This document shows, piece after piece, positions 1,811-19,556 of a DNA stretch of 47,146 nucleotides. Position 1 is the first letter of the stretch. Every line of letters begins with the position of its first letter. The stretch lies in the NCBI GenBank assembly GCA_028290905.1, contig JAQGIW010000231.1:1-47146 (forward strand). Reading direction: 5' to 3'. The position numbers were made by a program, and so were the translations under genes. Under the pieces are notes generated by a model. That model made no database searches. It had not been told where the DNA came from and saw only the letters and a program-made list of their open reading frames with translations. This DNA comes from Caulobacteraceae bacterium (lineage in GTDB: Bacteria > Pseudomonadota > Alphaproteobacteria > Caulobacterales > Caulobacteraceae).

Positions 1811-1839
1811 GGCGCGGCGGTGACGGAGCCGAGGGAAGG

Positions 1840-2463: not shown

Positions 2464-2547
2464 CGCGAAGGGCGGGCGCCGGACACCTCGGCCAATGAAT
2501 CCGGCGCGCCAGGCGAGGTCCTTAGATTGCTAATGGTCTTGACATAA

Positions 2548-2564
2548 TGTGAATTTAGTTGACA
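2548..2564. promoter_or_regulatory. Putative operator TGTGAA-N5-TTGACA upstream of the TonB receptor
   Basis: TGTGAATTTAGTTGACA has the same spaced inverted repeat (TGTnAA-N5-TTnACA) as 497-513. Over the wider 21-base alignment 14 positions agree between the two sites. It lies 97 bases before the GTG start at 2662, in an AT-richer stretch that also carries TTGACA at 2539-2544 and 2559-2564, so it probably overlaps the promoter. Confidence 0.5.
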
Positions 2565-2661
2565 AACTCCATGCTTGGCCGGTCACAACCAATGACTGAC
2601 TGGCAAAGGGAAAACGTCCATTTCGGCGCCTAACCGCGCCCACCACAGGGGGGAAGCCATA

Positions 2662-4829: not shown

Positions 4830-4865
4830 CGCTTCGGCGCACAGGGAAGGACGAATAGGCCGCGC

Positions 4866-5969
4866 ATGGATTTTTCGCCGCTTTTCACGCCCTACTCGGT
4901 GGGGCCGCTGACCTTGCCGAACAGGTTCATCATGCCCGCCATGCAGCGGGAACTTTCTCCAGGCGGCGTGCCGAGCGAAGAGATGGCGCGGCACTATCGG
5001 GAGCGCGTTGAGGGAGGCGTCTCCCTGGTGATTGGGGAGGCCACCGCCGTCGATCACCCGACCTCGACGCACTACTGGAAGTACGCGCGCCTGACCGGCC
5101 CCTCGCTCGACGGCTGGAAACGCGTGCGCGACGCCGTGAAGGACGCTGGCGGCGCCTTGTTCATCCAGCTCTGGCACGAAGGCGCCGTGCGCAAAGAGGG
5201 TGAAGGCCCGCACCCCGATGTGCGGACGATCAGCCCGTCGGGCCGGATCCAGGCCAGCGAACCGGTGGGCCGCGCCATGGCGCCCGGTGACCTGGTCGAA
5301 ATCAAGGACGCCTTCCTGCGCGGCGCGCGCACGGCGCGTGAGCTTGGCGTCGACGGCATCGAGATCCACTGCGCCCACGGATACCTGTTCGACCAGTTCC
5401 TGTGGGGCGAGACGAACGCGCGTACCGACGGCTATGGCGGCGATCACGTGGGCCGCACGCGTTACCCCTGTGAGGTGATCAGCGCCATCCGGTCGGAGGT
5501 CGGCCCCGACTTCCCGATCTCGGCGCGCATCTCGCAGTGGAAGGAACGAAACTTCGACGGCCGGATCGCGGACACGCCCGATCAGCTGCACGACATCCTG
5601 GCGGCGTTCCGCACCGCGGGCGTCGACGTCTTTCACGCCTCCACGCGGCGTTTCTGGACGCCGGAATTCGAGGGCTCCGACCTGGGTTTCGCCGGCTGGG
5701 TAAAGTCGCTCACCGACGCTTCGGTGATCACGGTGGGCAGTGTCGGACTCGACAATGACATCATGGCGAGTCTGTACGGCGAGCATGCCAGTTCGACGGG
5801 CAGACCCGGGCTGCAGGAACTGCTCCGCCGGTTCAGGAACAACGAGTTCGACCTCGTCGCCGTCGGCAGGTCGATCCTGGGCGATCCGAACTGGGTGCGA
5901 AAGGTGCGGGAGGGGCGCTTCGACGAGCTGAGGCCCTTTACCAAGGCCGACCTCGCGTTCCTGACCTAG
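4866..5969 (+). CDS. NADH:flavin oxidoreductase, old yellow enzyme family
   Basis: This 367-residue TIM-barrel FMN enzyme reduces activated C=C bonds or related substrates with NAD(P)H. Signs: N-terminal FTPYSVGPLTLPNRFIMPAM (~6-25), QLWHEGA (~101), and the long family block EIHCAHGYLFDQFLWGETN followed by ARTDGYGG (~165-192), which contains the substrate-binding His residues and the Tyr region. The phosphate-binding end is FDLVAVGRSILGDPNWV (~338-354). Loop sequences differ from the textbook HSANGYL pattern (here HCAHGYL), so the substrate class is uncertain. It lies 36 bases after the receptor gene and 22 bases before the DUF3237 gene, in the same direction, so co-transcription is likely. 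Confidence 0.88.
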   Translation: MDFSPLFTPYSVGPLTLPNRFIMPAMQRELSPGGVPSEEMARHYRERVEGGVSLVIGEATAVDHPTSTHYWKYARLTGPSLDGWKRVRDAVKDAGGALFIQLWHEGAVRKEGEGPHPDVRTISPSGRIQASEPVGRAMAPGDLVEIKDAFLRGARTARELGVDGIEIHCAHGYLFDQFLWGETNARTDGYGGDHVGRTRYPCEVISAIRSEVGPDFPISARISQWKERNFDGRIADTPDQLHDILAAFRTAGVDVFHASTRRFWTPEFEGSDLGFAGWVKSLTDASVITVGSVGLDNDIMASLYGEHASSTGRPGLQELLRRFRNNEFDLVAVGRSILGDPNWVRKVREGRFDELRPFTKADLAFLT

Positions 5970-5991
5970 TGAGCTGAGGGAAAAGCAGACC

Positions 5992-6462
5992 ATGCGCCAA
6001 CCGGAGACGCGGCATCTGTGCCGCTATCGCGCGAAGCTGGCTTCGCCGCAGCAGCAGGTCGGTGAAGCTCACTTTGGGCGCCGCATGATCGCCCAGGTGA
6101 TCGGTGGCGACTTCGAAGGCGAGCGCCTCCGCGGAAAGGTGTTGCCGGGAGGGGGCGACTGGGCCACCATCGACGGCTCCGGGACGTTGCGCCTTGACGC
6201 CCGGGCGACCTTGGAGACCGACGACGGCGCACAGATCTACGTCAACTACCGCGGTGTGCTGCGGCCGCTGGCGGTGGCCCAGGCCCACGCCATCAAGGGT
6301 GGTCCAAGCAGCGAGGCGGAGGCGCGGGAGCTTTACTTCCGAACCACGCCGATTTTCGAGACGGGCGACGCCCGGTACCAATGGCTGAACGACATCGTCA
6401 GCGTTGCGCTGGGCTCCACCCTCGGCGACGCCGTCGAGTACGAGGTCTTCGAAGTCCTCTAG
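5992..6462 (+). CDS. DUF3237 family protein
   Basis: The 156-residue protein has the DUF3237 pattern: an N-terminal strand ending in GRRMIAQVIGGDFEGERLRGKVLPGGGDW (~30-58), then LDARATLETDDGAQIYVNYRGVLRP, then YFRTTPIFETGDARYQWLNDIVSVALG near the C-terminus. The family is a small beta-barrel fold with no established reaction. Members are often found near oxidoreductase genes for aromatic or steroid-like compounds, which fits this site. The ATG at 5992 has a GAGGGA site at about 5975. It is the last gene of part A. Confidence 0.85.
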   Translation: MRQPETRHLCRYRAKLASPQQQVGEAHFGRRMIAQVIGGDFEGERLRGKVLPGGGDWATIDGSGTLRLDARATLETDDGAQIYVNYRGVLRPLAVAQAHAIKGGPSSEAEARELYFRTTPIFETGDARYQWLNDIVSVALGSTLGDAVEYEVFEVL

Positions 6463-6900
6463 GAGCTTTCTTGGGACTCGGCGTGCCGAACGCCGTCGGC
6501 ATAGGGCTTCAAACCCAGCGCTAGGATTTCTGCGGCCAGGCAGGACGATTACGATACCGGACAGGCATCCAAACTTCAGGGTGGCTCGGCGCCCGCGGCC
6601 GTTCACGTGGACGTCCCAGGCCGAACGATCGAACATCCATCGATTGTGTTCAAACGTGAGCCCCGAGCCAGCCGCCGTTACAACCGCATTGCGCCAGGTG
6701 CGGCCACTGGCAGGGCTCCAGAAGCTCGCCGTTGCAGCCCCTGGATCGCCAGCTGCACCACCGGCGAGCTATGGCCTACCACTGTTTCGCCGCCCGCTCC
6801 GATATCTGCCAGGACCTGCCCGCGGCCCCACTTCCCGCACCCGCTGGAACTCGCCGACCTGCCCTGACCGAACGCCATCGGCGCGCGATCTTTCCCATCG
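6463..6900. other. 438-base gap between converging genes, no convincing gene
   Basis: The gap separates the DUF3237 gene (+) from the Baeyer-Villiger monooxygenase gene (-). A short hairpin, TGCCGA / TCGGCA with a 6-base loop (6484-6501), may help termination. Several reading frames of 60-200 codons cross the gap on both strands, but they are Pro/Arg/Ser-rich, start without ribosome sites and show no family motif, so I take them as chance frames. It could hold the remains of a decayed gene; I cannot identify one. Confidence 0.5.
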
Positions 6901-8538
6901 TCAATCAACGGATTCGGCCCGTTCGCGGCCGATTCCGCCGACGAACCGGAATCCCTCGTACCCCCGCTGCGCCACCGCCTCGCACTGCTTCCGGTAGTTG
7001 GAGAACCCGCCGACATAGACGCCGAAGCGCCGCGGCTTGCCGGGGATGTTGGAGCCGAAGTACCAGGAGTTGGACCGCGGATAGAGGGTGTGGGAGACCA
7101 CCTCGGCCGCATGGTCGACCCAGGCCTGCTCGGCGCCTTCGTCGGCCTCGATCGCGCGCAGGCCCTCCCGGCGCATGTGGCCGATGCAGCCGGCGATCCA
7201 GTCGACGTGCTGTTCCACCGCCGTGGGCATGTTGGCCAGCACCGAGGGACTGAGGGGCCCGGTGATCGTGAACAGGTTCGGAAAGCCGGCGACGGCGAGC
7301 CCCAGGTAGGATTGCGGTCCCTGGCTCCAGTGCTCGGCCAGACGCGCCCTGCCGCGCCCCCGGATGTCCATGGCCAGGAGCGCCCCCGTCATGGCGTCGA
7401 AGCCGGTGGCCAGGACGAGGTCGTCGAGCTCATGCACCGCCTCGGGCGTGATCACCGAGTGTCCCTCGACACCGGTGATCGGCCACGCCCGAACATCGAC
7501 CAGCTCCACGTTGTCGCGATTGAAGGTCTCGTAATAGTCGTCGTCAACCGGCGGGCGCTTCACCCCGATGGGCTGGTCCTTCGGGATCAACCCCCCGGCC
7601 ACTATGGGGTCGCGCACCACGGCGCGGATGTGGTCGCGGACGAAGGCCTGGGCGGTCTCGTTGGCCGCCGGGTTGGTGAACAGGTCGGTGAAGGCGCTGA
7701 AGAACCGCATGCCGCCGATCCCCCACAACCGCTCGTAGACCGCCCGCCGCTCCTCATCGGTGACGTCGAAGGCCGACCGCGTCGCGCCCTCGAAGGGCAC
7801 CGCCCCCGGTGAGTTGAGGCATTTGTCCCGGATCTCGCCGTAGTTGGCCTTCACCCAGGCGTTGAATTCGGCGGCGGTTCTGGCGTTGCGCGCCGGCAGC
7901 ACCCAGTTGGCCGTCCGCTGGAACACCGTCAGGTGGCGCGCCTGGGCGGCGATGCGCGGGATGGCCTGGACGCCCGAGGCGCCCGTGCCGATGACGCCGA
8001 CGCGCCGGCCGGTGAAATCGACGGGCTCTTTGGGCCAGGCCGCCGTCCAGAAGACCCGCCCCTCGAAGGTGTCCAGGCCCGGTATGTCGGGCCGCTGGAT
8101 CTGGGAGAGGCACCCCGCCGCCGTCACCAGGAACTGGCCCTCCGCGGAACGCCCGTCGGCCGCCGTCACCCGCCAGGTCGCGCTTTGCTCGTCGAACTCG
8201 GCCCGGGTGACCGGCGCGCCGAAGCGGATGTGGCGCTTGAGGTCGAAACGGTCGGCCACATGCCGCAGATAGCCCAGGATCTCGGGCTGCTCGGAATACC
8301 TCAGGCTCCAGTCCCACGCCTGCTGCAGCTCGTTGGAGAAGGAGTAGCTGTAGTAATAGCTCTCGCAGTCGCAGCGGGCGCCTGGATAGCGGTTCCAGTA
8401 CCACACCCCGCCCACGTCATCGCCCTTCTCGAAGGCGATCACCCGGTAGCCCAGGCTCGTCAGCCTGTGGATGGCGTAGAGCCCGGCGAAGCCGGCGCCG
8501 ACCACCACCACGTCGCAGGCCTCGGGCGGCTCGCTCAT
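6901..8538 (-). CDS. Type I Baeyer-Villiger monooxygenase (FAD/NADPH) with altered fingerprint
   Basis: The 545-residue protein has two Rossmann motifs: GAGFAGL (14-20) for FAD and GTGASG (~188-193) for NADPH. It has the GGVWYWNRYPGARCD block (43-57) and the Arg-containing region GVKRPPVDDDYYETFNRDNV, equivalent to the active-site Arg region of phenylacetone monooxygenase. These enzymes insert oxygen next to a ketone to give an ester or lactone. The family fingerprint FxGxxxHxxxWP is present as FEGRVFWTAAWP from residue 158, so the conserved His is Trp164 (codon TGG, 8047-8049). The ATG at 8538 has a strong GGGGAGGA site. A putative TetR operator lies 20 bases upstream. It is transcribed away from the SDR gene at 8655. 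Possible substrates are cyclic or aryl ketones; none can be read from the sequence. Confidence 0.92.
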   Translation of the reverse strand: MSEPPEACDVVVVGAGFAGLYAIHRLTSLGYRVIAFEKGDDVGGVWYWNRYPGARCDCESYYYSYSFSNELQQAWDWSLRYSEQPEILGYLRHVADRFDLKRHIRFGAPVTRAEFDEQSATWRVTAADGRSAEGQFLVTAAGCLSQIQRPDIPGLDTFEGRVFWTAAWPKEPVDFTGRRVGVIGTGASGVQAIPRIAAQARHLTVFQRTANWVLPARNARTAAEFNAWVKANYGEIRDKCLNSPGAVPFEGATRSAFDVTDEERRAVYERLWGIGGMRFFSAFTDLFTNPAANETAQAFVRDHIRAVVRDPIVAGGLIPKDQPIGVKRPPVDDDYYETFNRDNVELVDVRAWPITGVEGHSVITPEAVHELDDLVLATGFDAMTGALLAMDIRGRGRARLAEHWSQGPQSYLGLAVAGFPNLFTITGPLSPSVLANMPTAVEQHVDWIAGCIGHMRREGLRAIEADEGAEQAWVDHAAEVVSHTLYPRSNSWYFGSNIPGKPRRFGVYVGGFSNYRKQCEAVAQRGYEGFRFVGGIGRERAESVD

Positions 8539-8558
8539 GGATCGTCCTCCCCTTTTGC

Positions 8559-8572
8559 GTAACAGACGTTAC
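8559..8572. promoter_or_regulatory. Putative TetR operator GTAACAGACGTTAC
   Basis: GTAACAGACGTTAC is an inverted repeat (GTAAC / GTTAC, 4-base spacer) directly upstream of the ribosome site of the monooxygenase gene (minus strand). It is the most symmetric member of a motif, rTAACA-nn-yGdTAy, that recurs at 8626, 13481, 14248 and 14278, all in promoter regions around the TetR gene at 13484-14140. Confidence 0.6.
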
Positions 8573-8625
8573 GGTGCTGCCGGGCTTGAACGCAAGCGCG
8601 AATGGCTCCCAAGGCCGTTGCAAAC

Positions 8626-8639
8626 ATAACAGATGATAT
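8626..8639. promoter_or_regulatory. Putative TetR operator ATAACAGATGATAT
   Basis: ATAACAGATGATAT matches the motif of 8559-8572 with weaker symmetry. It ends 15 bases before the SDR start codon at 8655, and no ribosome site is visible between them, so the SDR message may be leaderless, with this site overlapping the -10 region (inference). Confidence 0.5.
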
Positions 8640-8654
8640 GTAACCGCTGTCGCC

Positions 8655-9470
8655 ATGAGTCAGGGAACGGGACGCGTCGAGGGAAAAACAGCGCTGGTCA
8701 CCGGCGCCGCCAGCGGCATCGGCCGGGGCTGCGCCATCGGCCTGGCCCGGGAAGGCGCCACGGTGATCGTCGCCGATGTCGATCTGGAGGGCGCGCGGGA
8801 GACCTGCGGCGCCATCCAGGCCCAGGGCGGCGTGGCCAGGACGCAGGCGCTTGATGTCGCCGATGAAGCCGCCTGGGCGGGCGCCATCGATGGCCAGCGG
8901 CGGGAAGGGGCGGGGCTCCACATCCTCGTCAACAACGCGGCCCTGTGCATCCGGGCGTCGGTGCTGGAAATGAGCCTCGAAGCGTGGCGGCGCCAGGCGT
9001 CGGTGAACCTGGACGGGGTGTTCCTCGGCGTCCGGGCCGCCCTACCTCTCATGGCCGAGTCGGGGGGCGGCTCGATCGTCAACATCTCGTCGGTCGCCGG
9101 CCTGAAAGGGATTGCCGGCCTGTCGGGCTATTGCGCCACCAAGGGTGGCGTGCGGCTGTTCACCAAGGCCGTGGCGCTGGAATGCGCCCAGGCCCGAAAC
9201 GGTGTCCGGGTGAACTCGGTCCACCCCGGCAGCATCGAGACGCCGATCTGGGTGAAGATGGGGAACGCCGGCGAGATGCCGAAGATCGGCGCCAATTCCG
9301 TCGGGCACATCATGGACGAGATCCGCACCGTCGCCGCGGAGGCGACCCCGCTCGGGTTTTCCGGCGCGCCGGAGGACGTCGCCGAAGCCGTCCTCTACCT
9401 CTGTTCGCAGGCCGCGCGCTTCGTCACCGGGGCGGAACTGGTCGTCGACGGCGGCGTCTACGCCGGGTGA
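8655..9470 (+). CDS. Short-chain dehydrogenase/reductase (classical SDR)
   Basis: The 271-residue Rossmann oxidoreductase carries the classical SDR marks: TGAASGIG (~17-24) for NAD(P), NNAA (~93-96), the catalytic Ser in VNISSVAG (~141) and YCATK (~158-162) with Tyr and Lys. An Asp at the end of the second strand (VIVADVD) suggests NAD(H) preference. It probably oxidises an alcohol to the ketone used by the divergent Baeyer-Villiger enzyme, or reduces one (inference). ATG at 8655 has no ribosome site in front, and the N-terminus (RVEGKTALVTG) is normal for the family, so a leaderless start is plausible. It converges with the cyclase-family gene. Confidence 0.9.
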   Translation: MSQGTGRVEGKTALVTGAASGIGRGCAIGLAREGATVIVADVDLEGARETCGAIQAQGGVARTQALDVADEAAWAGAIDGQRREGAGLHILVNNAALCIRASVLEMSLEAWRRQASVNLDGVFLGVRAALPLMAESGGGSIVNISSVAGLKGIAGLSGYCATKGGVRLFTKAVALECAQARNGVRVNSVHPGSIETPIWVKMGNAGEMPKIGANSVGHIMDEIRTVAAEATPLGFSGAPEDVAEAVLYLCSQAARFVTGAELVVDGGVYAG

Positions 9471-9492
9471 TGCGCCCCGGTCGGCGGCTGTC

Positions 9493-10428
9493 TCAGAACA
9501 TGGCGATGGGATTGAGCGGCGAGCCGGTCCCACCCGGAACGCGCAGCGGCGCCAGGGTCAGCAGGAACTCCCAACGGCCTGCCGCGATGCATGCCGCGCT
9601 CACCGCCTCGAGATCGAGGTTGTCGAGCAGATGCAGCCCCATCGAGACCAGCCCCACCATATGGATCGGCATGGGCCAGCCCGGCGCGCATCGACCGGAG
9701 GGGATGGGGTCATGGACCCCATCGCCGCCAAGCACCGCCACCTGTCGCTCGTGGAGCCACGCCGCCACCTCGGGATCCAGCCCAGGCACCGCCTGGTCGG
9801 TGACGGTTTCGCGCCGGGCGTCCCGCCCGAGGCGGATCAGCAGGATATCGCCCTTGCCGACCCTGAGGCCCTGCGCCGCCTCGGTCGCCTCCAGTTCGCC
9901 CACCGTGGTCAGGTGATCCGGGTCCATGAACGCCCTGCCCAGCGCCCGTGGGACATCGAGCAGCACGCCGCGGCCCGCCAGACCCTCCTTGAGCGTCATC
10001 ACCGTATTGCGCCGCGCGCCGGTGCTCTTCACCTCCGATGCGGGGTGTCCATTGTACATGCGGCCGCCCTGGAAGACGTGACACAGGGCGTCCAGATGGC
10101 TCGAGGCCATCCCGTGGAAGGCGATGCCGATGTAGTCGGTGGACACCTCCAGACCGTCGACCCCCGGGACGCAGGGATCGTCGCCGGCGATCACCATGTG
10201 GTGGTGGGCCGGCCAGGGGTTCTCCGGGCCCGGCTGGATCGGAAAGTCGCGTGACAGGCTGACCGTGCGCCCCAGGCAGACGAGGCCGGCCGCGGCGCGC
10301 GCCTCCGCCGAGGTCAGGTGGTTCAGGGCGCCGCGCTCGTCGTCCGGGCCCCAGCGGCCCCAGTTGCAGACCGACGAGAACAGGGCCTCCATGTCGGCGT
10401 CGGACATCTCCCGCGACAGCTTGGCCAC
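9493..10428 (-). CDS. Cyclase-family metal-dependent hydrolase (kynurenine formamidase/isatin hydrolase fold)
   Basis: The 311-residue protein has the cyclase-family metal site HGMASSHLDALCHVF (family pattern HxGTHxDxxxH), N-terminal WGRWGPDDERGALNHLT and C-terminal GWPMPIHMVGLVSMGLHLLDNLDLE, typical of the longer members. Characterised relatives cleave cyclic amides or formamides (isatin hydrolase, kynurenine formamidase) with Mn or Zn. Here it may open a ring or lactone made by the oxygenases (inference). The start is GTG at 10428, 3 bases after the VOC gene stop, so the two genes are translationally coupled in one operon that also includes the TonB receptor upstream. Confidence 0.85.
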   Translation of the reverse strand: MAKLSREMSDADMEALFSSVCNWGRWGPDDERGALNHLTSAEARAAAGLVCLGRTVSLSRDFPIQPGPENPWPAHHHMVIAGDDPCVPGVDGLEVSTDYIGIAFHGMASSHLDALCHVFQGGRMYNGHPASEVKSTGARRNTVMTLKEGLAGRGVLLDVPRALGRAFMDPDHLTTVGELEATEAAQGLRVGKGDILLIRLGRDARRETVTDQAVPGLDPEVAAWLHERQVAVLGGDGVHDPIPSGRCAPGWPMPIHMVGLVSMGLHLLDNLDLEAVSAACIAAGRWEFLLTLAPLRVPGGTGSPLNPIAMF

Positions 10429-10431
10429 GCC

Positions 10432-10944
10432 CTACGCCTGCTTGAGCAGGGCTTCGTTGGCCCGCGAGTGACGGACGCCCGGCTGCAGCTCGATCAGTTC
10501 GATGAGATTGCCGTTGGGATCGTAGCAGCAGCATGACCCCACCAGGCCGAGATCCTCCTCCGGCACGAAGACGTCGCGGCAGAACCTGACGCCCTTGGCG
10601 GTCAGCTCGGCCCAGGCGGCGTGAACCCCCTCGGTGCGGAAGGCGATGATGCGTGGGACCTGCTCGGCGGCCCGCCCGGGGTCGGGAAACTCGGCCCTGG
10701 GCTCGACCCACTCGATCAGGTCGATCATCGGCCCGTGCGGATCCGAGGGCAGAACCATCAGAACGCCGCGCCCCTTGGCCCGCTTCATGCCGAAGATCGT
10801 CGCCACGAAGTCCGGCCACTCCACCTTGCGTCGGTCATTGAGGACGTCGAAGCCGAGCAGCTTGTAGAAGGCCACCGACTCGTCGAGGGCCCGGACGTTG
10901 ACCACCGTGTGGTAGAGGCTTTGCAGTTTCCAGCTCTGGGCCAC
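10432..10944 (-). CDS. VOC (glyoxalase/bleomycin-resistance/dioxygenase) family protein
   Basis: The 170-residue protein has two beta-alpha-beta-beta-beta modules. It opens with LYHTVVNVRALDESVAFYKLLGFDV (His in YHT is the expected first metal ligand), has an acidic ligand candidate in MIDLIEW and ends with DPNGNLIELIEL (Glu ligand). The position where a second-module His is common (HIAF) reads IIAF, so the metal site may be incomplete. It resembles the other VOC protein of this cluster (15527-16063) across its whole length. VOC enzymes include isomerases, ring-cleaving dioxygenases and lyases; the reaction here is unknown. GTG start; 106 bases separate it from the receptor stop. Confidence 0.88.
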   Translation of the reverse strand: MAQSWKLQSLYHTVVNVRALDESVAFYKLLGFDVLNDRRKVEWPDFVATIFGMKRAKGRGVLMVLPSDPHGPMIDLIEWVEPRAEFPDPGRAAEQVPRIIAFRTEGVHAAWAELTAKGVRFCRDVFVPEEDLGLVGSCCCYDPNGNLIELIELQPGVRHSRANEALLKQA

Positions 10945-10963
10945 GGGATGGCGCTCCGTCCTG

Positions 10964-11007
10964 AGTGCGTTCCGAAAAGCGGGAACTGGCTTTCCGATGA
11001 AACGCGC
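10964..11007. repeat. Imperfect palindromic repeat of the GCGTTCCGAAAAGC type
   Basis: The sequence starts TGCGTTCCGAAAAGC and ends GCTTTCCGATGAAACGC around a short GGGAACTG centre, forming an imperfect hairpin. Repeats that look like this occur between genes in many alphaproteobacterial genomes (general knowledge). It sits inside the receptor-VOC-cyclase operon, between the receptor stop and the VOC start, where it could weaken downstream expression. Confidence 0.4.
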
Positions 11008-11050
11008 GTGAAAAAGACCGGCGGGACCGGCGATCTGCTCTCTCGGATCT

Positions 11051-13369
11051 CTAGCGACCGAAATTGACCGTCACCCGGGCGCCGTAGGTGCGCGGCGGGA
11101 AGTAGGCGAAGTTGTCCGGTTCCAGCGCCTGCTGGCCCAGGGTGATCGACTGTAGGCCGTCGTTGGAGATGACGTTGGCGTTTTCCAGGTTCTTGGCGAA
11201 CAGCTCCACCTGATAGCGGCCGTTCAGGCTCGTCCACGTCAGATGCAGATTGGTCAGGTGATAGGCCGGCTGCGTCGAGGTGTAGTAGTTGTCCGGCAGG
11301 AACTGGACGCGCCCGGAGAGATAGCTGTCGACGCGCGGCGTGATCGTGCCGATGTCGGTATGGAACGTGTAGGCGAGGCCCAGGTCCAGCGTATAGGGCG
11401 GCGTCTGGTTGAGTTCATTCCCCTGGAAGTTGCAGAGCTTGGTGACCGGGTCGCAGCCCGGACCCGGACCGCCGAAGCGGGTGTCGGTGGTGATGTACCG
11501 GCCGTACTTGGCGTCGGTCAGGGTGAGAGTGGCGTTGAAGCGCAGGTTGGGGACCGGAACGGCGGTGAACTCGGCCTCCAGGCCGTTGACGAAGGTCGTG
11601 CCGTTGACGTTGTTGATGCCCGACTGGGTGGAGCTCTGTATGAACACCTGCAGGCTGCTGATCGCCTCACGATAGGCCGCGATGTCCAGCTGCAGGCGAT
11701 CGTCCCAGAAGCGCGACTTGAAGCCGGCTTCATAGGACCACATGGTCTCGGGCCCGTAGACGTGGGCGAGGCCGATGATGTTGCCGCCGGCCAGATAGCC
11801 GCGCGAGACCGAGGCATAGGCCATCAGCCGATCGGTGATCTGATAGGCCAGGCCGAACTTGCCGGTCAGCTGGCCCCAGGTGTTGGTGAAAGGCCCGTGG
11901 ATGGCTCCGCATGAGCCGCCGCAGGCGAGCGGCAGCTGGTAGTCCAGGTAGTTGAAGCCGTACTTGGTGTCGTTGCTGTAGCGCAGTCCCGCGGTTATCG
12001 TCAGGGGCACGCGCAGAGACGTCTTGGCGAGATCGAAGTCGATCTGGCCAAAAGGTGCGTATGATTTGGTCTTGGTGAATCCGTTGCTCAGAAAATTGAA
12101 TTCGTCGAATATCCCCGGCAGCGGGAAGGTGTCGTTGTAACCGGTATCCGAATAGGTGAACCTTTCCTGGTCGTCGGCATAGAAGTAGATGAAGCCGGCG
12201 AGCCATTTCAACGGCGAGTCCGAGGGCAGTGACGCCAGCCGCAGTTCCTCGGAGAACTGCTCGCTGTGCATGATCCAGGTCGGGTCGAAGGAGATCGGCA
12301 GGTTGGAGCCGTCGCCGTCGCTGGTCTGGTTGACGTTGCTGTGGCTGTAGGCGGTCACCGAGGTGAACTGGGCGAACGGCAGGCGCCAGTCGAAGGTCGC
12401 GGAATAGAGTTGCACCCGGTTGTCGGCGAAGGCCGGATAGTCCTGGCAGAATTTCCGGGGATTGAACTTCGCCGCGGTGCTGAAGTCGCAAGGCGACCCC
12501 GCCGGAATTCCCCCGGGGGGATTGGTGTAGCGCGCCGGCGTCTGCCACCACGCGGTGTTGGTGGCGGTGGGATCGCCGTTCTCGCTCGAGGTGGCGGACA
12601 CCAGCAAGGAAACGTCGGGTGAGAACTCGAACTTCAGCTGTCCACGCACCATCCAGTACTTCTGCGCATCCTGGTTGTGGGTGGCGGTGGGTGCGGTGGA
12701 GAGGTTGACCGAATAGGGATCGTGGTTGGCGGAGACCGCCGTCAGGCGCCCCGTGACCTTGACACCCCCGGCGTCGAACAGCGGCCCGCTGATGAAGCCA
12801 CGGAAGATCCGGGTGTCGAAGTTGCCGAACAGGGCGTCCACCGACGCCTGGTAGGTGTCGGTGGGCTTGCGGGTGACGATGTTGATCGAACCCCCGACCG
12901 AGTTGCGGCCGTACAGGGTCCCTTGCGGGCCGCGCAGGACCTCGATCCGGTCGATGTCGTAGAATTCGGGGTCGATGGCGGTGGTCTGCTGGAGATAGAC
13001 GCCGTCGACGTTGTAGGCCACGGGCGAGTCGCCCCCGGGCGTGGTGTTCTGGCTGCCCAGCCCCCGCATCGTGATGACGTTCTCGCCGCCCGTCACCCCC
13101 GCGCCGAAGCGCAGGGAGGGAACCGCCGTTCCAAGGTCCTGGAAGCCTTCGACTCCCTGGGCCTGCAGCGCCGGGCCGGTGACGGCGGAGATGGCGATTG
13201 GCACCTTCTGCACGTCCTCGGCCCGGCGCTCGGCGGTCACCACCACCTCCCCCACGGTGGCGACGGCGTTCTCCGCGCCGGCGGCGGCGGAATCGGCGCC
13301 GAAGGCGGCCGCCGGACAGACCAGCGTCAGCGCGGTCGCGCCGAACCACAGCAATCGCTTCCCTGTCAT
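11051..13369 (-). CDS. TonB-dependent receptor
   Basis: This intact 772-residue outer-membrane receptor imports a substrate with TonB energy. The ATG at 13369 follows a GGGAGGGTGA ribosome site and begins a signal peptide (MTGKRLLWFGATALTLVC, AAAFG). Next come a TonB-box-like stretch (VGEVVVTAERRAEDVQKVPIAIS), the plug (MRGLGSQNT, FYDIDRIEVLRGPQGTLYGRNSVGGSIN) and the barrel, ending in the aromatic-poor but typical TYGARVTVNFGR. An open frame extends 26 codons further upstream, but only the ATG gives a signal peptide. It belongs to the sucrose/vanillate-like or oligosaccharide-like group common in Caulobacterales; the ligand is unknown. The VOC and cyclase genes follow. Two putative operator copies lie within 130 bases upstream. 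Confidence 0.93.
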   Translation of the reverse strand: MTGKRLLWFGATALTLVCPAAAFGADSAAAGAENAVATVGEVVVTAERRAEDVQKVPIAISAVTGPALQAQGVEGFQDLGTAVPSLRFGAGVTGGENVITMRGLGSQNTTPGGDSPVAYNVDGVYLQQTTAIDPEFYDIDRIEVLRGPQGTLYGRNSVGGSINIVTRKPTDTYQASVDALFGNFDTRIFRGFISGPLFDAGGVKVTGRLTAVSANHDPYSVNLSTAPTATHNQDAQKYWMVRGQLKFEFSPDVSLLVSATSSENGDPTATNTAWWQTPARYTNPPGGIPAGSPCDFSTAAKFNPRKFCQDYPAFADNRVQLYSATFDWRLPFAQFTSVTAYSHSNVNQTSDGDGSNLPISFDPTWIMHSEQFSEELRLASLPSDSPLKWLAGFIYFYADDQERFTYSDTGYNDTFPLPGIFDEFNFLSNGFTKTKSYAPFGQIDFDLAKTSLRVPLTITAGLRYSNDTKYGFNYLDYQLPLACGGSCGAIHGPFTNTWGQLTGKFGLAYQITDRLMAYASVSRGYLAGGNIIGLAHVYGPETMWSYEAGFKSRFWDDRLQLDIAAYREAISSLQVFIQSSTQSGINNVNGTTFVNGLEAEFTAVPVPNLRFNATLTLTDAKYGRYITTDTRFGGPGPGCDPVTKLCNFQGNELNQTPPYTLDLGLAYTFHTDIGTITPRVDSYLSGRVQFLPDNYYTSTQPAYHLTNLHLTWTSLNGRYQVELFAKNLENANVISNDGLQSITLGQQALEPDNFAYFPPRTYGARVTVNFGR

Positions 13370-13445
13370 CGTCACCCTCCCTTTTGGGCGGTCGGCGGTC
13401 GGATCGGAATACCGCCGCGCGCCGCCGTGTTTTATTGAAGGTAAC

Positions 13446-13494
13446 ATAACGCTGGTTTTGTATAAGGGAAGGGCCTTTTCGTATCAGTTGTTAT
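13446..13494. promoter_or_regulatory. Putative TetR operator region upstream of the TonB receptor
   Basis: On the minus strand 13494-13481 reads ATAACAACTGATAC, a good match to the rTAACA-nn-yGdTAy motif. On the plus strand 13446-13459 reads ATAACGCTGGTTTT, a weaker match. Their centres are 35 bases apart. The better copy overlaps the stop codon of the TetR gene (13484-13486), so the receptor promoter starts inside the end of the regulator gene. Confidence 0.45.
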
Positions 13495-14140
13495 GCAAAA
13501 GGCCTTGGGCAGGGCTTGCTGGCGCGTGGCGCGCCGGGCGCCCGATGCGGCCCTCGGCCAGGCTCTCGATCCAGGAATCGATGATCTGCCACTGGCGCGC
13601 GACGGGGATGCGTCCGCTGCCGAGCAGCACCTGCACGCTGACGCCATCGATCAGGGCCACGAGTTCCTGGGCGGCCAGCTCGGCGTCGAAGCCGCCGGCG
13701 GCCTCGCCCTCGTCCTGGGCCCGCCGGATGATCACGGCCAGGCGCCCGCGCCATTCCTCGTAGCGGTCGCGCATCACCCGCTTCACCTCGGGATTGTAGC
13801 TGGCGCGCTCCCAGAACCCCACCCAAATGCGCCAATAACCCCGGACGAGCGGCGTGATTGGCAGAGACTCTCCTACGACCCGGCGCAATGCGGTCAAGGC
13901 CGACTTGTGGCGTGCGGCGCGCTCCATGCGGGGCCGCACCAACTTGGCGGACACCTCCGACGCCTCGATCAGCACCTGATCCTTGGAGGTGAAATAGTGG
14001 GTCAGGGCGCCCGTCGTGAACCCCGCCTCCTTGGCCACTTCCCGCACCGTCAGGCCGTCGACACCGGCGCGCATGATCACCCGCAGGGCGGCCATGGCGA
14101 AGACCTCCCGCCGCTCCTTGTGGTCGGCTTGCCTAGCCAT
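13484..14140 (-). CDS. TetR family regulator, probable local regulator of the part B cluster
   Basis: The 218-residue protein has an N-terminal TetR helix-turn-helix: ERREVFAMAALRVIMRAGVDG, then LTVREVAKEAGFTTGALTHYFTSKDQ (~30-55, TTGALTHYF being the recognition helix), followed by an all-helical ligand-binding domain. HYFTSKDQVL is typical of the BetI-like branch. It lies between the receptor gene and the divergent luciferase-like gene. A shared operator-like motif is found at both of these promoters and at the BVMO/SDR promoters, which supports a regulator of the whole 8.5-16 kb cluster (inference). The ATG at 14140 is 108 bases from the closest motif copy. Confidence 0.9.
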   Translation of the reverse strand: MARQADHKERREVFAMAALRVIMRAGVDGLTVREVAKEAGFTTGALTHYFTSKDQVLIEASEVSAKLVRPRMERAARHKSALTALRRVVGESLPITPLVRGYWRIWVGFWERASYNPEVKRVMRDRYEEWRGRLAVIIRRAQDEGEAAGGFDAELAAQELVALIDGVSVQVLLGSGRIPVARQWQIIDSWIESLAEGRIGRPARHAPASPAQGLLHNN

Positions 14141-14247
14141 GCCTGCCTCGCCCCTCGGCCAAAGCTCGATCCCGTCCTAGCACAAATCCGCTCCCCGACC
14201 CTGGGTCCCGACGGCCCCGGGGCGCCGCGAAGCTGCGAAAATCTTCG

Positions 14248-14291
14248 ATAACATCCGTTACGTGGTTCACACCAAACAAAACGCCTGTTAT
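14248..14291. promoter_or_regulatory. Paired putative TetR operators in the TetR / LLM divergent promoter
   Basis: ATAACATCCGTTAC at 14248-14261 (plus strand) and ATAACAGGCGTTTT read on the minus strand at 14291-14278 face each other, with centres exactly 30 bases apart, about three helical turns. Both lie between the TetR start (14140) and the LLM start (14322). This is the arrangement expected for autoregulation plus control of the LLM-VOC operon. Confidence 0.6.
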
Positions 14292-14321
14292 GTGAACGGT
14301 CAACGAAGGGGAGCGCCGCCG

Positions 14322-15527
14322 ATGAAATTCGACCTGTTCTGCGAAATCCAGCGGGCCTTCCCCTGGGCGGAGCGCGAAGAAGCCGACCTGTTTGCGGAGA
14401 TCGTCGATCAGGCCAAGGCGGCCGACGAGGCTGGGTTCGAGACCTGGTGGCAGGTGGAACACCACGGCGCTCCGGAGTTCAGCTATTCCTCCGCCCCCGA
14501 GGTGGTCCTCGCCGCCCTGGCCATGGCGACGCGCCGCCTGCGTGTGGGCCACGCCGGCGTGCTCGCCCCGTTCAAGATCAACAATCCCTTGAGGGTCGCC
14601 GAACGGTCGGCCACGCTCGACATCCTGTCGGGGGGCCGGTTCGAACTGGGCCTGGCCAAGTCCGGCGGCAAGGAGTGGGAAACGTTCGGGGTCGACGCCG
14701 CCGCCGCTCGCGACGAGGTGCGGGAAGCCATGCACATGATCCCGCGCATGTGGACGGAGCCGGAGTTCTCCTGGAACTCCCCCACCTACACGATGCCGCC
14801 TCGGTGTGTGGTCCCCAAGCCGCTGCAGAAGCCGCACCCCCGGCTCTGGCAGACCTGCGGCTCCCCCGAGAGCTTCTTCATGGCCGGCGAGATGGGAGTC
14901 GGGGCGCTCGGCACCACCCTCCTCAGCCCCATCGCGTTTCTCGGCCAGATGATGCGCGAGCATGACCGGGGGCTGGCCGCCTGCCGGCAACCGGCGGGAC
15001 TGGCGGTCAATCCCGAGAAGGGCGCCTTCACCTTCGTCCACGTGGCCGAGAGCCGGGCCGCCGCCATCGCCAGCGGCGCGGCCTGGTCGGCCTTGTGGTA
15101 CGTCAACGCGGCCGCCGTCACCTTCAAGGTGCCCAGGCGGGTGTGGTACGACATGATCAAGGCCGGCCTCCATCCGAACTCGGCGCGGGACACTGCCGCC
15201 ATGGCCGAGCTGGATCCGCATGAAACCACCATCCAGCCCGATGACCCGCCGGTGCTGGTGGTGCTCAAGCGCCTCGCCCAGGGCGAGGCCATCAGCCGCG
15301 AGGAAGCCCATGAGGTGCTCGAGCCGCTCGACTGCGTGGTCATCGGCGATCCGGACCACTGCATCGAGAAGTTCAAGGGCTACCGGTCGATCGGCGTCGA
15401 CCGGATGATGTGCATGGTGCAGTTCGGCGCCATCGCGCCCGAAGCGGTGATCCGCTGCATCGAGTTGGCCGGGCGCTATTGCATCCCCGCCTTTTCCGGT
15501 GAGACGGCGATCGAGAGGGTCGCCTGA
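14322..15527 (+). CDS. LLM-class (luciferase-like) flavin-dependent oxidoreductase
   Basis: The 401-residue TIM-barrel protein belongs to the bacterial luciferase superfamily, which uses FMNH2 or F420. Visible: FETWWQVEHHG (~43-52, the His pair typical of the family), PEVVLAALAMATRRLRVGHAGVLAPFKINNPLRVAE (~60-95), LDILSGGRFELGLAKSG (~100-116) and the C-terminal VVIGDPDHCIEKFKGYRSIGVDRMMCMVQFG. FMN-dependent alkane or ketone monooxygenases (type II Baeyer-Villiger enzymes) are possible relatives. The ATG at 14322 has a GAAGGGGAG ribosome site at 14305-14313. A longer frame starts at 14262 but lacks this site and family homology. Its stop overlaps the VOC start by one base. Confidence 0.9.
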   Translation: MKFDLFCEIQRAFPWAEREEADLFAEIVDQAKAADEAGFETWWQVEHHGAPEFSYSSAPEVVLAALAMATRRLRVGHAGVLAPFKINNPLRVAERSATLDILSGGRFELGLAKSGGKEWETFGVDAAAARDEVREAMHMIPRMWTEPEFSWNSPTYTMPPRCVVPKPLQKPHPRLWQTCGSPESFFMAGEMGVGALGTTLLSPIAFLGQMMREHDRGLAACRQPAGLAVNPEKGAFTFVHVAESRAAAIASGAAWSALWYVNAAAVTFKVPRRVWYDMIKAGLHPNSARDTAAMAELDPHETTIQPDDPPVLVVLKRLAQGEAISREEAHEVLEPLDCVVIGDPDHCIEKFKGYRSIGVDRMMCMVQFGAIAPEAVIRCIELAGRYCIPAFSGETAIERVA

Positions 15528-16063
15528 TGAGCGCAGCCCCGATGAGCGAAGATTGGGCGCTCGAGCGGTTCTATCACACCATCATCAACGCCAGGGACAT
15601 CGACGAGACGGTCCGCTTCTATCAGGATCTCGGCTTCGAGATCGTCCGTGATCGCCGCCGGATGACCTGGCCACCCGGGGGCGGCCTCGCGTTCGGCCTG
15701 ATGCCCGACGTCAAGGGGCGCGGCGGAACCCTGATGGCCCTGCCCAGCGATCCGCCTCCGGAGGGACCGATGCTGGACATCATCCAGTGGATCGAGCCGG
15801 AGGCGACCTTCAACGAGATATCGCCCACCACCATTCCGCGTGTCACCGCGTTCCGCACCCGCAACGTCCGGGCGGCGATCAAAGCCATGCAGGCGAAGGG
15901 ATACCGCACCACCACCGCCGAGGCGCTGGACGCCAATGCGGCGGCGGGGATCCTGTTCGTCGGCGGGGTGTATGATCCCAATGGTAACGTGATCGAGCTG
16001 ATCGAACTCGCGCCCGGTCTCGTCACGTCCCGGCTCCAGGAGGTACACGGTACGGACGAATAG
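15527..16063 (+). CDS. VOC family protein, paralogue of 10432-10944
   Basis: The 178-residue two-module VOC protein reads RFYHTIINARDIDETVRFYQ at the start and DPNGNVIELIELAPG at the end, the same framework as the other VOC protein of the cluster. Both also share a middle LPSDP and an I(I/Q)WIEPEA-like or LIEWVEPRA segment. The usual second-module His is replaced (VTAF). The ATG overlaps the LLM stop (TGATG), so the two are translationally coupled and may act on the same substrate or on successive intermediates. Reaction unknown. Confidence 0.88.
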   Translation: MSAAPMSEDWALERFYHTIINARDIDETVRFYQDLGFEIVRDRRRMTWPPGGGLAFGLMPDVKGRGGTLMALPSDPPPEGPMLDIIQWIEPEATFNEISPTTIPRVTAFRTRNVRAAIKAMQAKGYRTTTAEALDANAAAGILFVGGVYDPNGNVIELIELAPGLVTSRLQEVHGTDE

Positions 16064-16366: not shown

Positions 16367-17437
16367 GTGAGCGGAGAACCGCGCAAGGTCGCCCTGATCA
16401 CTGGCGTCACCGGCCAGGACGGCGCCTGCCTGGCCGAACTGCTGCTGGCCAAGGGCTACACCGTCCACGGACTCAAGCGACGTTCGTCTTCGTTCAACAC
16501 CGGCCGCATCGACCACCTCTTCCAGGACCCCCACGATCCCGATCCCCGGTTCATCCTCCACTTCGGAGACATGACCGACGCCAGCAACCTCATCCGCATC
16601 GTCCAGAGCGTCGCCCCCGACGAGATCTACAACCTCGCGGCCCAATCCCATGTGCTGGTGAGCTTCGACACCCCGGAATACACCGGCAACGCCGACGGCC
16701 TGGGCGCCCTGCGGCTGCTGGAAGCCGTGCGGCTGCTCGGCCTCAGCCGCTGCCGGGTGTTCCAGGCGTCGACGTCCGAGCTCTACGGCAATGCCGACGA
16801 GAGCCCGCAGACCGAGACCACGCCGTTTCGGCCGCGCAGCCCCTACGGCGTGGCCAAGCTCTATGCCTATTGGATGGTGGTCAACTATCGCGAGGCCTGG
16901 GGCCTGCACGCCTCCAACGGGGTCATGTTCAACCACGAGAGCCCGGTGCGTGGGGAAACCTTCGTCACCCGGAAGATCACGCGGGCGGCGGCGGCCATTC
17001 ATCTGGGGCGGCAGGAGCGGCTGTTTCTCGGCAACCTCGACGCGCGGCGCGACTGGGGCCACGCCCGCGATTTCGTGCGCGGCATGTGGTTGATCGGTCA
17101 GCAGGCGGCGCCCGACGACTACGTCCTCGCCACCGGCCAGACCCATTCCGTGCGGACTTTCGCCGAACGGGCCTTCTCCCGCGTCGGCGTCACGCTCGCC
17201 TGGCGCGGGCGGGGAGTCGAGGAGGTCGGCGTCGACGCGGCGACCGGGGTGGTGCGGATCCAGGTCGATCCCCGCTACTTCCGCCCCGCCGAGGTCGACG
17301 AACTGGTCGGCGATGCGAGCAAGGCCCGCGACCGCCTGGGCTGGCGGCCGGAGTTGGATTTCGACACCCTCGTCGCAGACATGGTGGACGCCGACCTGCG
17401 CGTCGCCGCCGGCGAGCGCGAGGGGGTGCATCGCTGA
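16367..17437 (+). CDS. gmd: GDP-mannose 4,6-dehydratase
   Basis: The 356-residue extended SDR converts GDP-D-mannose to GDP-4-keto-6-deoxy-D-mannose. Signs: [23 protein letters not shown] (~9-31, NADP motif GxxGxxG), [38 protein letters not shown], the STSELYG catalytic Thr/Glu site, and [12 protein letters not shown] carrying the Tyr-x3-Lys pair. The start is GTG at 16367. Its stop overlaps the start of the next gene (TGATG at 17435-17439), so translation is coupled. It supplies the intermediate used by the two enzymes that follow. Confidence 0.95.
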
Positions 17438-18639
17438 TGGCCCGCGGAGCCGAGCCCTTCCGTTATCCCCTGGCGCTCGACACCTGGGGCGAGGGCGAGC
17501 GACGCGCCGCCATCGCCGTCATCGAGAGCGGCCAGACCAGCATGGGCCGTCGGGTGGCCGCCTTCGAGGCGCGCTTCGCCGCCCACTTCGGGGCCCGCCA
17601 TGCGGTGATGGTGAACTCGGGCTCGTCGGCCAACCTCCTGGCCGTGGCGGCCCTGTTCCATGCGCGCCCGCCCCTGGTGCGCGAGGGCGCCGTGGCCATC
17701 GTCCCGGCCGTTTCCTGGTCGACGACCTATTTTCCCCTGTGCCAGCACGGGCTCACCCTGCGCTTCGTCGACATCGACCGCGACACCCTTAATTTCGATC
17801 TGGGCGCCCTGGAACGGGCGCTGGACGACCGTGTCGGCGTCGTGTTCGCGGTCAACCTGCTGGGCAACCCCAACGACTACGACGCGATCGCGGGCCTCCT
17901 GGCCGCCCGCGACATCACGCTTATCGAGGACAACTGCGAATCGATGGGCGCCCGGCTGGGCGGCCGGTGGACGGGCCGGTTCGGCCGCATCGGAACATTC
18001 AGCACCTTCTTCAGCCATCATCTCTCGACGATGGAGGGCGGCGTCTGCCTCACCGACGACGACGAACTTCATCAGATCCTGCTCTCGCTGCGCGCCCACG
18101 GCTGGACCCGGGGCCTGACCTGGCCCAACCGCCTCGCCGGGTCCGATCCGCGCGGGCAATTTCACGACGCCTTCCGCTTCATCCTCCCGGGCTACAACGT
18201 CCGTCCGCTGGAGGTCTGCGGCGCCGTCGGCCTCGCCCAGATCGAGCGCCTGCCGGGGTTTGTCTCCCGCCGGCGGGAGACGGCCCGGCGCCTGCGGGAG
18301 CGCTTCTCTGATCTGCGCGGGGTGCGCCTGCAACGCGAACTCGGCGAGAGCAGCTGGTTCGGTTTCGCCTTCATCCTCACCGAGGAGGCGGAGGTGAGCC
18401 GGGACGTGGTGGTGGCGCGCCTGGCGACGGCGGGCGTCGAATGCCGGCCGGTCGTGGCCGGCAACTTCACCCGCCAGCCGGTGATGGCCCATCTGCGCCA
18501 CGAGCCTCCCGGCGCCTTGCCGAACGCCGACGAGGTCCACGACCGGGGATTCTACATCGGCAACAATCCCATGGACGACGACGACCTCGAGCGCCTGCAC
18601 GGGGCGTTCCGGGCGGCCCTGGCCCGGGCGCGGCCGTGA
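17437..18639 (+). CDS. colD: GDP-4-keto-6-deoxy-D-mannose 3-dehydratase (ColD-like; PLP lysine replaced by His)
   Basis: The 400-residue protein has the DegT/DnrJ/EryC1/StrS aminotransferase fold: AVMVNSGSSANLL (~58-70), IVPAVSWSTTYFPL, FVDIDRDTLNFDL, VNLLGNPNDYDAI, EDNCESMGA and LPGYNVRPLE. In aminotransferases a Lys binds PLP in the SFHPAKHITTGEGG-type motif. Here the motif is FSTFFSHHLSTMEGG, and the Lys position is His194. This is the hallmark of ColD, where the equivalent His (His188 in the E. coli enzyme; this protein has six extra N-terminal residues) makes the enzyme remove the C3 hydroxyl instead of transaminating. CDP-sugar dehydrases of the RfbH type share the His, but the gmd neighbour favours the GDP-sugar enzyme. 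The assignment is strong; substrate specificity is inferred. Confidence 0.88.
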   Translation: MARGAEPFRYPLALDTWGEGERRAAIAVIESGQTSMGRRVAAFEARFAAHFGARHAVMVNSGSSANLLAVAALFHARPPLVREGAVAIVPAVSWSTTYFPLCQHGLTLRFVDIDRDTLNFDLGALERALDDRVGVVFAVNLLGNPNDYDAIAGLLAARDITLIEDNCESMGARLGGRWTGRFGRIGTFSTFFSHHLSTMEGGVCLTDDDELHQILLSLRAHGWTRGLTWPNRLAGSDPRGQFHDAFRFILPGYNVRPLEVCGAVGLAQIERLPGFVSRRRETARRLRERFSDLRGVRLQRELGESSWFGFAFILTEEAEVSRDVVVARLATAGVECRPVVAGNFTRQPVMAHLRHEPPGALPNADEVHDRGFYIGNNPMDDDDLERLHGAFRAALARARP

Positions 18640-19556
18640 AGATCCTGGTGACCGGCGCGGGGGGCATGGTCGGGCGCAACCTGCTCGCCGATCCGCGCGC
18701 CGCGCGCCACCAGATACTCTCGCCGTCGCGAAGCGAGCTGGATCTGACGGATTCGGTAGCCTGCCAGAGCCTTCTGGTACGCGAAAAGCCGGATTTGATC
18801 ATCCATCTGGCGGCGGTGGTGGGGGGGCTGCAGGCCCACATCGACGCTCCCGCGACCTTCCTGGCCGACAACCTCGCCATCGCCCTCAATCTGCTCGGCG
18901 CCGCCCGGCGGGCGGCGATCCCGCGCCTCATCAACCTGGGCAGCAGCTGCATGTATCCGCGGGGCCGGGAGGGCGCCCTGGGCGAAGACCAGCTGCTCTC
19001 CGGACCGCTGGAGCCCACCAACGAGGGCTATGCGCTCGCCAAGATCGCGGCCTGGAAGCTGACGCAGGCCTTCGGCCGCGAAGACCCCGGCCGCCTCTGG
19101 CGCACTCTCATTCCCCCCAATCTCTATGGTCCTCACGATCGGTTCGACGCCGCCCGCTCGCATCTGGTGGCGGCGGCCATCGCCAAGATCGACCACGCCC
19201 TTCGCGCGGGCGCGAATGAGGTGGAGATCTGGGGCGATGGGACGGCCCGCCGCGAGTTCCTGTTCGTCGGTGATCTCGCCGACTTTGTCTGGCGCTTTCA
19301 CGATCGCCTGGAGGACCTGCCGGAAACCCTGAACGTCGGCGTCGGCGAGGATGCCACGGTGGACGACTACTACGGCGCCGTGGCGGGGGTGATGGGCTAT
19401 CGCGGCGCGTTCCGTCACGACCCGCGCCGACCTGTCGGCATGCGCCGCAAGCTCCTGGACGTCACCGGCCAGACCCTCCTGGGATGGCGCCCGGCGACGT
19501 CACTTGTCGAGGGCGTCGCCGCCGCGGTCGCCGTCTATCGTCGCGGCCCGGACTGA
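18636..19556 (+). CDS. colC: GDP-L-colitose synthase / GDP-L-fucose synthase-like epimerase-reductase
   Basis: The 306-residue SDR carries VTGAGGMVGRNLL (~5-17), the catalytic LGSSCMYP (Ser and Cys), NEGYALAKIAAWK (Tyr-x3-Lys), PPNLYGPHDRF and SHLVAAAIAKI (His), all as in GDP-fucose synthase, a C3/C5 epimerase plus C4 reductase. ColC is its close relative, acting on the 3-deoxy product of ColD. Sequence alone does not separate the two; the ColD gene directly upstream makes GDP-L-colitose the likely product. GTG at 18636 overlaps the previous stop by four bases. No glycosyltransferase or transporter for the sugar is in the window. Confidence 0.8.
   Translation: MKILVTGAGGMVGRNLLADPRAARHQILSPSRSELDLTDSVACQSLLVREKPDLIIHLAAVVGGLQAHIDAPATFLADNLAIALNLLGAARRAAIPRLINLGSSCMYPRGREGALGEDQLLSGPLEPTNEGYALAKIAAWKLTQAFGREDPGRLWRTLIPPNLYGPHDRFDAARSHLVAAAIAKIDHALRAGANEVEIWGDGTARREFLFVGDLADFVWRFHDRLEDLPETLNVGVGEDATVDDYYGAVAGVMGYRGAFRHDPRRPVGMRRKLLDVTGQTLLGWRPATSLVEGVAAAVAVYRRGPD

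Follow-up and report, generated by a model that had tools for sequence, protein, structure and literature searches.

Genes of the locus

The window analysed here is a stretch of 47,146 nucleotides from a Caulobacteraceae bacterium (contig JAQGIW010000231.1; host assembly of 5.23 Mb, 96% complete), in which an earlier note, made from the letters alone, had singled out eight neighbouring genes as an unassigned catabolic system. All eight open reading frames (ORFs) were present at the coordinates listed below, and each exceeded the Pfam cut-off in a scan of the window proteins, in the family that had been assigned to it; the recurrence of the set in other genomes goes beyond chance. Among the matches listed, none reached a curated NCBIfam cut-off, and the cyclase-family protein had no NCBIfam match of any kind.

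6901-8538, - strand: type I Baeyer-Villiger monooxygenase (BVMO), FMO-like, by Pfam; accessory arm
8655-9470, + strand: short-chain dehydrogenase (SDR), adh_short_C2 E 2.3e-56; accessory arm
9493-10428, - strand: cyclase-family (PF04199) metal-dependent hydrolase, by Pfam and motif; core, putative hydrolytic step
10432-10944, - strand: VOC1, by Pfam; core, of a subfamily mostly confined to the module
11051-13447, - strand: TonB-dependent outer-membrane receptor with Plug and beta-barrel domains; core
13484-14140, - strand: TetR-family regulator with TetR_N and TetR_C_6; core
14322-15527, + strand: luciferase-like monooxygenase (LLM), Bac_luciferase PF00296 E 7.2e-48; core, putative oxygenase
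15527-16063, + strand: VOC2, by Pfam; accessory, a paralogue of VOC1 (45% identity)

The LLM reading frame opens at 14262 (14262-15527, + strand), with the ATG at 14322 as the probable start, and an internal ATG near 13369 is a possible true start of the TonB receptor. Scanning for sigma-70 promoters and terminators gave no signal exceeding chance.

Conserved core, optional arm and hydrolase exchange

Full-length LLM orthologues were found in seven of the 149 Caulobacteraceae genomes searched, that of the window and, at 76 to 78% identity, G093, G095, G108, G113, G135 and G147, and an LLM fragment (68%) was found in G105. VOC2 had matches at an E value of 1.3e-40 or better in exactly the same seven genomes, each inside the cluster, and the next best of its 20 matches stood at 1.4e-8. 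Cyclase orthologues (69 to 77%) were detected in G093, G095 and G135; G108, G113 and G147 lacked any close match. Two types of loci could be recognized. Type A (G093, G135 and G095) comprises TetR, TonB, VOC1, cyclase and LLM, and type B (G108, G113 and G147) comprises BVMO, SDR, TetR, VOC1, TonB, an Amidohydro_2 protein, VOC2 and LLM. The window is a mixture: its cyclase is that of type A, and its BVMO, SDR and VOC2 are those of type B. Its cyclase, VOC1, TonB, TetR and LLM genes share order and orientation with those of G095 (locus L040), in a block that there also includes a second LLM. SDR orthologues (65 to 71%) adjoin the BVMO in the type B loci, with a further one (61%) in L082, a locus from the public genomes described next.

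To cover these, an LLM alignment was scanned against 84,980 species genomes; 139 stretches encoded a relative, and the best 80 loci were kept. Counts of module loci refer to the first 43 of them by locus number (L055 to L097, including L091 and L095, which carry no module), and the other 37 served as controls, a split that roughly follows LLM rank. Several of the public loci are the same contigs as loci of the family search, so the two sets of counts are not independent. Most loci come from metagenome bins of uncultured bacteria, whose titles (e.g., Klebsiella or Myxococcota) were not relied on. Overall, the LLM orthologues were 75 to 80% identical. Among the 43 loci, TetR was present in 35, VOC1 in 36, a TonB receptor homologue in 34 and one hydrolase in 37, and all four occurred together with the LLM in 33. 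These five genes are the conserved core of the module, and BVMO, SDR and VOC2 are accessory. The BVMO was found in nine loci and BVMO with SDR in only eight, which makes this arm optional. The earlier note had presented the eight genes as one set, and it is the system that is conserved and not the equal standing of its members; the core orthologues were not scattered over the relatives. Carriers include Alphaproteobacteria and bins titled Pseudomonadales, where the gene order is LLM, cyclase, TetR, TonB and VOC1. The fullest set outside Caulobacteraceae was that of L082, with BVMO (truncated by the end of the stretch), VOC, DUF3237, TonB, SDR, two TetR, VOC1, cyclase and LLM. More distant LLM relatives (about 40 to 46%, from actinobacteria, myxobacteria and others; L098 to L134) were considered as carriers and rejected, each neighbour family being found in at most 4 of these 37 loci.

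Apart from the module itself, the module loci had few flanking genes in common. A single-chain biotin-dependent acyl-CoA (coenzyme A) carboxylase lies beside the module in nine of the 43, after the LLM in L055, L056, L058, L059, L060 and L065 and before TetR in L077, L081 and L090, and may be part of a lower pathway. Some modules have, within or beside them, another LLM of about 50% identity that belongs to a separate clade (L040 6032-7282, L074 194-1414 and L084 4713-6002). In L094 there is a second, partial copy of the module (SDR, TetR, VOC2 and LLM), apparently from the same metagenome bin as L062.

The hydrolase is the variable member of the core. Of the 43 loci, 27 had only the cyclase, 10 only the amidohydrolase and 6 neither, and no locus combined both, even at an E value of 1e-4. 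Among the six, the LLM was at or near the end of the stretch in L071, L086 (which retains a 90-residue piece of the cyclase) and L090; the Chloroflexi bins L091 and L095 carry no module, and the sixth, L094, is the partial copy mentioned above. We placed the hydrolases on a midpoint-rooted tree of the LLM, built from the window and 36 of 83 LLM reading frames (a start-motif filter kept 37, and L058 was then excluded) and including 9 of the 10 amidohydrolase loci. The amidohydrolase rows formed a single group (support 95/86), centred on Phenylobacterium, and the distribution required one change, compared to a mean of 8.0 when shuffled. The cyclase would have come first. The window LLM grouped with that of G095 (L069), a cyclase locus. 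Two unrelated hydrolases that never share a locus, with one exchange on the tree, suggest a single hydrolytic step served by either. This mutual exclusion is described here for the first time, and the exchange marks a step that is probably common to two unrelated enzymes, on which assays could be focused.

A shared palindrome and the TetR-family regulator

While reading the intergenic DNA of the window, we spotted a repeated palindrome, RTAACANNCGTTAY. Allowing up to two mismatches, it gave 11 strand matches in the 47 kb against 1.27 expected, a count that is not independent, as the pattern was derived from the window. Ten of the 11 fall at six places before BVMO/SDR, TonB and LLM, and one lies elsewhere. 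The six places are as follows.

8559..8572: predicted operator, exact, between the divergent BVMO and SDR, GTAACAGACGTTAC
8626..8639: operator-like, two mismatches, before SDR, ATAACAGATGATAT
13446..13459 (-): operator-like, two mismatches, before the TonB receptor
13481..13494: operator-like, two mismatches, between TetR and the TonB receptor, GTATCAGTTGTTAT
14248..14261: predicted operator, exact, between the divergent TetR and LLM, ATAACATCCGTTAC
14278..14291 (-): operator-like, one mismatch, before LLM

The exact form of RTAACANNCGTTAY was matched in 40 of 137 loci, some being copies of the window or of each other, and for counting the pattern was relaxed to the symmetrical RTAACNNNNGTTAY. 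This gave 84 exact sites in 38 of the 43 module loci (697,659 bases), where random sequences matched for dinucleotide composition would give 0.2, and none in the 37 control loci (718,052 bases). As a further control, permuting the arms gave eleven palindromes with 6, 1 or 0 sites each. For all sites but one (83 of 84), the 5' end of a module reading frame, mostly that of LLM, TonB or SDR, is no more than 350 bases away; frames were taken from stop to stop, and their ends are therefore approximate. The arms are constant and the two central bases free, and a purine stands just inside the arm in 165 of 168 half-sites. Exact sites were present in 31 of the 33 loci with a full core. Among the five loci lacking one (L071, L080, L083, L091 and L095), one is cut at the contig end, two are without the module and two (L080 and L083) have a full core. 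On a genomic scale, both exact copies of RTAACNNNNGTTAY in the 5.2-Mb genome of the window fall within the cluster, as do 14 of the 17 in the six other module genomes, and seven genomes without a full module had four sites in total. In G095, G108 and G147, the sites that fall elsewhere lie within or next to genes that, judging from translations only, have no obvious connection to the cluster.

The window TetR is the likely binder of the RTAACNNNNGTTAY sites, since it is the conserved regulator of the module and its recognition-helix region is kept: of 37 aligned TetR rows, some with as little as 35% identity, 34 retain TTGAL and the longer TTGAL[TV]HY that contains it. The rows that depart from this are a second TetR in L082, L083 and L089. 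The module is thus likely to be a single TetR regulon. Conserved co-occurrence and the shared predicted operator bear out the suggestion of the earlier note that these genes, a dedicated importer included, form one system that a single TetR probably controls. They also contradict the notion of unrelated catabolic genes lying merely side by side, which the abundance of BVMO and LLM paralogues in this genome (28 BVMO-like matches, in part fragments of the same gene) could have favoured and which we find hardly credible. RTAACNNNNGTTAY as a shared operator of the module is new here, and it offers a handle on the substrate, because a compound that frees TetR from it would indicate the substrate without growing the host.

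The catabolic-looking stretch extends upstream to about position 563 with genes on the + strand for an HsaA-like flavoprotein, an AzoR-like flavodoxin, another TonB receptor, an old yellow enzyme (OYE) and a DUF3237 protein. The coding sequence of this receptor (2662-4829) changes frame between 2662-4338 and 4359-4829, owing either to a real frame break or to an assembly error. We rejected the genes at 563-6462 as part of the module: the stretch contains no copy of the operator even with two mismatches, DUF3237 homologues are scattered over 42 of the 149 genomes, and the HsaA-like gene has its best remaining matches (68 to 70%) in the three type B genomes G108, G113 and G147, on other contigs and near another TonB receptor. 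It looks like an adjoining but separate locus, perhaps with some link to the module, as DUF3237 is present in 2 of the 43 module loci (L074 and L082). The proposal, in the available part of PMC12607616, that the DUF3237 protein PinX decarboxylates a lignan acid with ring opening is a hint for these neighbours. On the other side of the module, at 16367-19556, the translations resemble by eye a GDP-mannose dehydratase, an aminotransferase and a GDP-fucose synthase.

Proposed chemistry and comparison with known systems

With moderate confidence, we favour a TetR-repressed uptake-and-cleavage module that carries out import, flavin-dependent oxygenation of the Baeyer-Villiger type and metal-dependent hydrolysis, with BVMO, SDR and VOC2 as accessories. 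Without ligand, TetR on the RTAACNNNNGTTAY sites would silence three promoter regions, those between TetR and LLM-VOC2, before TonB-VOC1-cyclase and between BVMO and SDR. The substrate or a product would bind TetR, and the TonB receptor would then bring in a ketone-bearing compound. The LLM, with reduced flavin mononucleotide (FMN) from a reductase encoded elsewhere, would insert oxygen beside the carbonyl as a type II Baeyer-Villiger enzyme, and the ester or lactone produced would be opened by the cyclase-family hydrolase or, in the Phenylobacterium-centred clade, by the amidohydrolase that resembles lactonases. VOC1 may perform a core step, perhaps an isomerisation, and the optional arm of SDR, BVMO and VOC2 could make and oxidise a second ketone and thereby widen the range of substrates that are taken in. 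We infer the TetR binding, the inducer, the substrate and every reaction of this scheme, and the chemistry is a reasoned guess. The sequence of steps put forward in the earlier note, its cleavage by VOC proteins and its terpenoid or polyketide-like substrate are likewise conjectural.

The LLM has the luciferase-like domain (PF00296) expected of type II, FMN-dependent, Baeyer-Villiger monooxygenases. FMN is the likelier cofactor rather than F420, on the indirect ground that the F420 marker CofG exceeded its cut-off in only one of the seven module genomes. By its position in the tree, the module LLM appears to be a subfamily of its own. For the BVMO, the best full-length alignments to solved structures were those with phenylacetone and steroid monooxygenase (E 4.5e-180 and 2.3e-178), and the first type I fingerprint, [A/G]GxWxxxx[F/Y]P[G/M]xxxD, is present as GGVWYWNRYPGARCD, read by eye from the translation. 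Both this fingerprint and the second, FxGxxxHxxxW[P/D], are as given in PMC9836352, in the part available.

In an alignment of the two window VOC proteins with 29 of 36 VOC1 and 4 of 6 VOC2 sequences, H12, D75 and E149 were invariant (35 sequences). Glyoxalase I binds its metal through H, E, H and E, and the position of the second His was by eye not conserved. Matches of the VOC profile to glyoxalase I, methylmalonyl-CoA epimerase and other proteins are weak (best E 4.1e-7), and VOC1 had one match (34%) in 72,556 plasmid records.

As for the hydrolases, the amidohydrolase has 4dlf, which we take to be a COG3618 lactonase, and 6uvz as solved relatives by sequence. The cyclase has the family match and the metal-ligand motif with altered spacing (H-x5-H-x-D-x3-H); H105, H111, D113 and H117 were invariant in 21 aligned sequences (the window and 20 of 28). 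Its nearest solved relative is 5IBZ, the esterase MGS0169, reported as metal dependent, and other PF04199 members open isatin, trans-dienelactone or a cyclic 1,3-diketone (available parts of PMC5341072 and PMC10470551). It shares the family and the His/His/Asp/His ligands with MGS0169/5IBZ, isatin hydrolase, trans-dienelactone hydrolase and dihydrophloroglucinol cyclohydrolase, and differs from all of them by two extra residues in the motif, H-x3-H-x-D-x3-H in these relatives as they are presented there. The last of these enzymes raises an alternative in which, within the same regulon, the LLM would add a hydroxyl group to a ring and the cyclase-family enzyme would break a C-C bond of a cyclic 1,3-diketone by retro-Claisen hydrolysis. 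The presence of such a C-C hydrolase in PF04199 (PMC10470551, in the part available) and the reach of the module cyclase profile to isatin hydrolase (E 2.3e-5) speak for it. The swap with a lactonase-like amidohydrolase suits the opening of an ester or lactone better, and we regard this alternative as unlikely.

Several observations weigh against the uptake-and-cleavage module that we favour. Besides the dependence of the window count on the pattern taken from it, a backward version of the palindrome was no rarer over whole genomes (29 sites against 19 in the seven module genomes, 4 against 2 in that of the window, and equal or more frequent in 5 of the 7), and the operator claim therefore rests on the position of the sites and not on their number. 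In L080 and L083, where the core is complete, the only copies carry one mismatch and lie close to where operators would be expected. LLM proteins catalyse many reactions other than Baeyer-Villiger oxidation. The window LLM is only 31% identical to the pdc-type LLM of N. aromaticivorans (see below), and the pdc-type LLMs belong to a different clade, on long branches that leave the deep order unsure. In the BVMO, the second fingerprint reads FEGRVFWTAAWP, with Trp in place of the usual His, which is kept in the orthologues of seven type B loci and is Tyr in L082 and in Mycobacterium branderi; its activity is thus less sure, one fingerprint residue being off despite the strong full-length alignment. 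Finally, the genes flanked by operators did not include a CoA ligase, an enzyme of beta-oxidation or a flavin reductase, and a complete catabolic route is therefore not evident.

Another alternative is a module for detoxification or signal breaking, which would disarm a toxic natural product or destroy a signal without feeding growth. The exact operators of the window genome flank only module genes, with no lower pathway among them. VOC proteins occur in antibiotic resistance, and an antibiotic-inactivating LLM pair, AbmE2/AbmZ, is mentioned in PMC12239570 (in the part available). A TonB receptor homologue in 34 of the 43 loci would be odd for pure protection, and we consider this account quite unlikely.

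More broadly, and tentatively, the module may represent an undescribed import-and-cleave pathway of Alpha- and Gammaproteobacteria dedicated to one class of natural products, with a new TetR operator, a separate type II Baeyer-Villiger LLM subfamily, a module-specific core catalytic VOC subfamily and two unrelated ring-opening hydrolases that replace each other. Type II Baeyer-Villiger enzymes of known role are few (PMC12239570 and PMC9836352, available parts). The earlier note knew no described pathway with this gene combination; that still holds within the open-licence PMC papers searched, where we found no description of the full combination, and the two related systems, pdc and AntQ-1, have fewer parts as far as their available descriptions go.

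In the pdc cluster of Caenibius tardaugens, TetR, a type I BVMO and an LLM are likewise found together, and both oxygenases carry out a Baeyer-Villiger oxidation of a ketone, converting progesterone to testosterone acetate, an ester (PMC12239570, available part; the N. aromaticivorans LLM is given there as 88% identical to the pdc LLM). Unlike the module, pdc as presented in that part has four genes and a LuxR regulator, without TonB receptor, VOC, cyclase or SDR. This similarity and the alignment of our BVMO with phenylacetone and steroid monooxygenases could point to an equivalent cluster for progestogens, acting on the steroid side chain. The LLM clade differs from the pdc type, the 13 window proteins scanned with Pfam (563-16063) include no LuxR regulator and the steroid-ring marker KshA was found in only two of the seven module genomes, which makes this very improbable. 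The steroid link drawn from the BVMO alignment and the upstream HsaA-like gene was accordingly lowered, with KshA_C in nine of the 149 genomes overall.

On plasmid pJCM12687 of the actinobacterium M. branderi (L135, 8766-15371), an LLM, two cyclases, a BVMO (53%) and a dehydrogenase lie side by side, as in the module. The dehydrogenase is annotated as coniferyl-alcohol dehydrogenase, presumably an SDR. Unlike in the module, the cyclases are only 30 and 37% identical, genes of a CoA pathway are nearby and no TonB gene is listed; the LLM and the dehydrogenase had no blastp match at an E value of 1e-8. The low identities suggest a separate assembly.

Sphingobium sp. AntQ-1 offers a parallel: anthraquinone induces an LLM together with a hydrolase, and likewise a BVMO together with a lactone hydrolase (PMC9836352, in the part available). 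It shares with the module the pairing of each oxygenase with a hydrolase and an adjacent gene for an outer-membrane transporter, BtuB, and differs in the gene set and in the alpha/beta hydrolase domain of the hydrolase adjoining the LLM, as far as that part describes them. Labelling work cited in the same source links Phenylobacterium to anthraquinone use.

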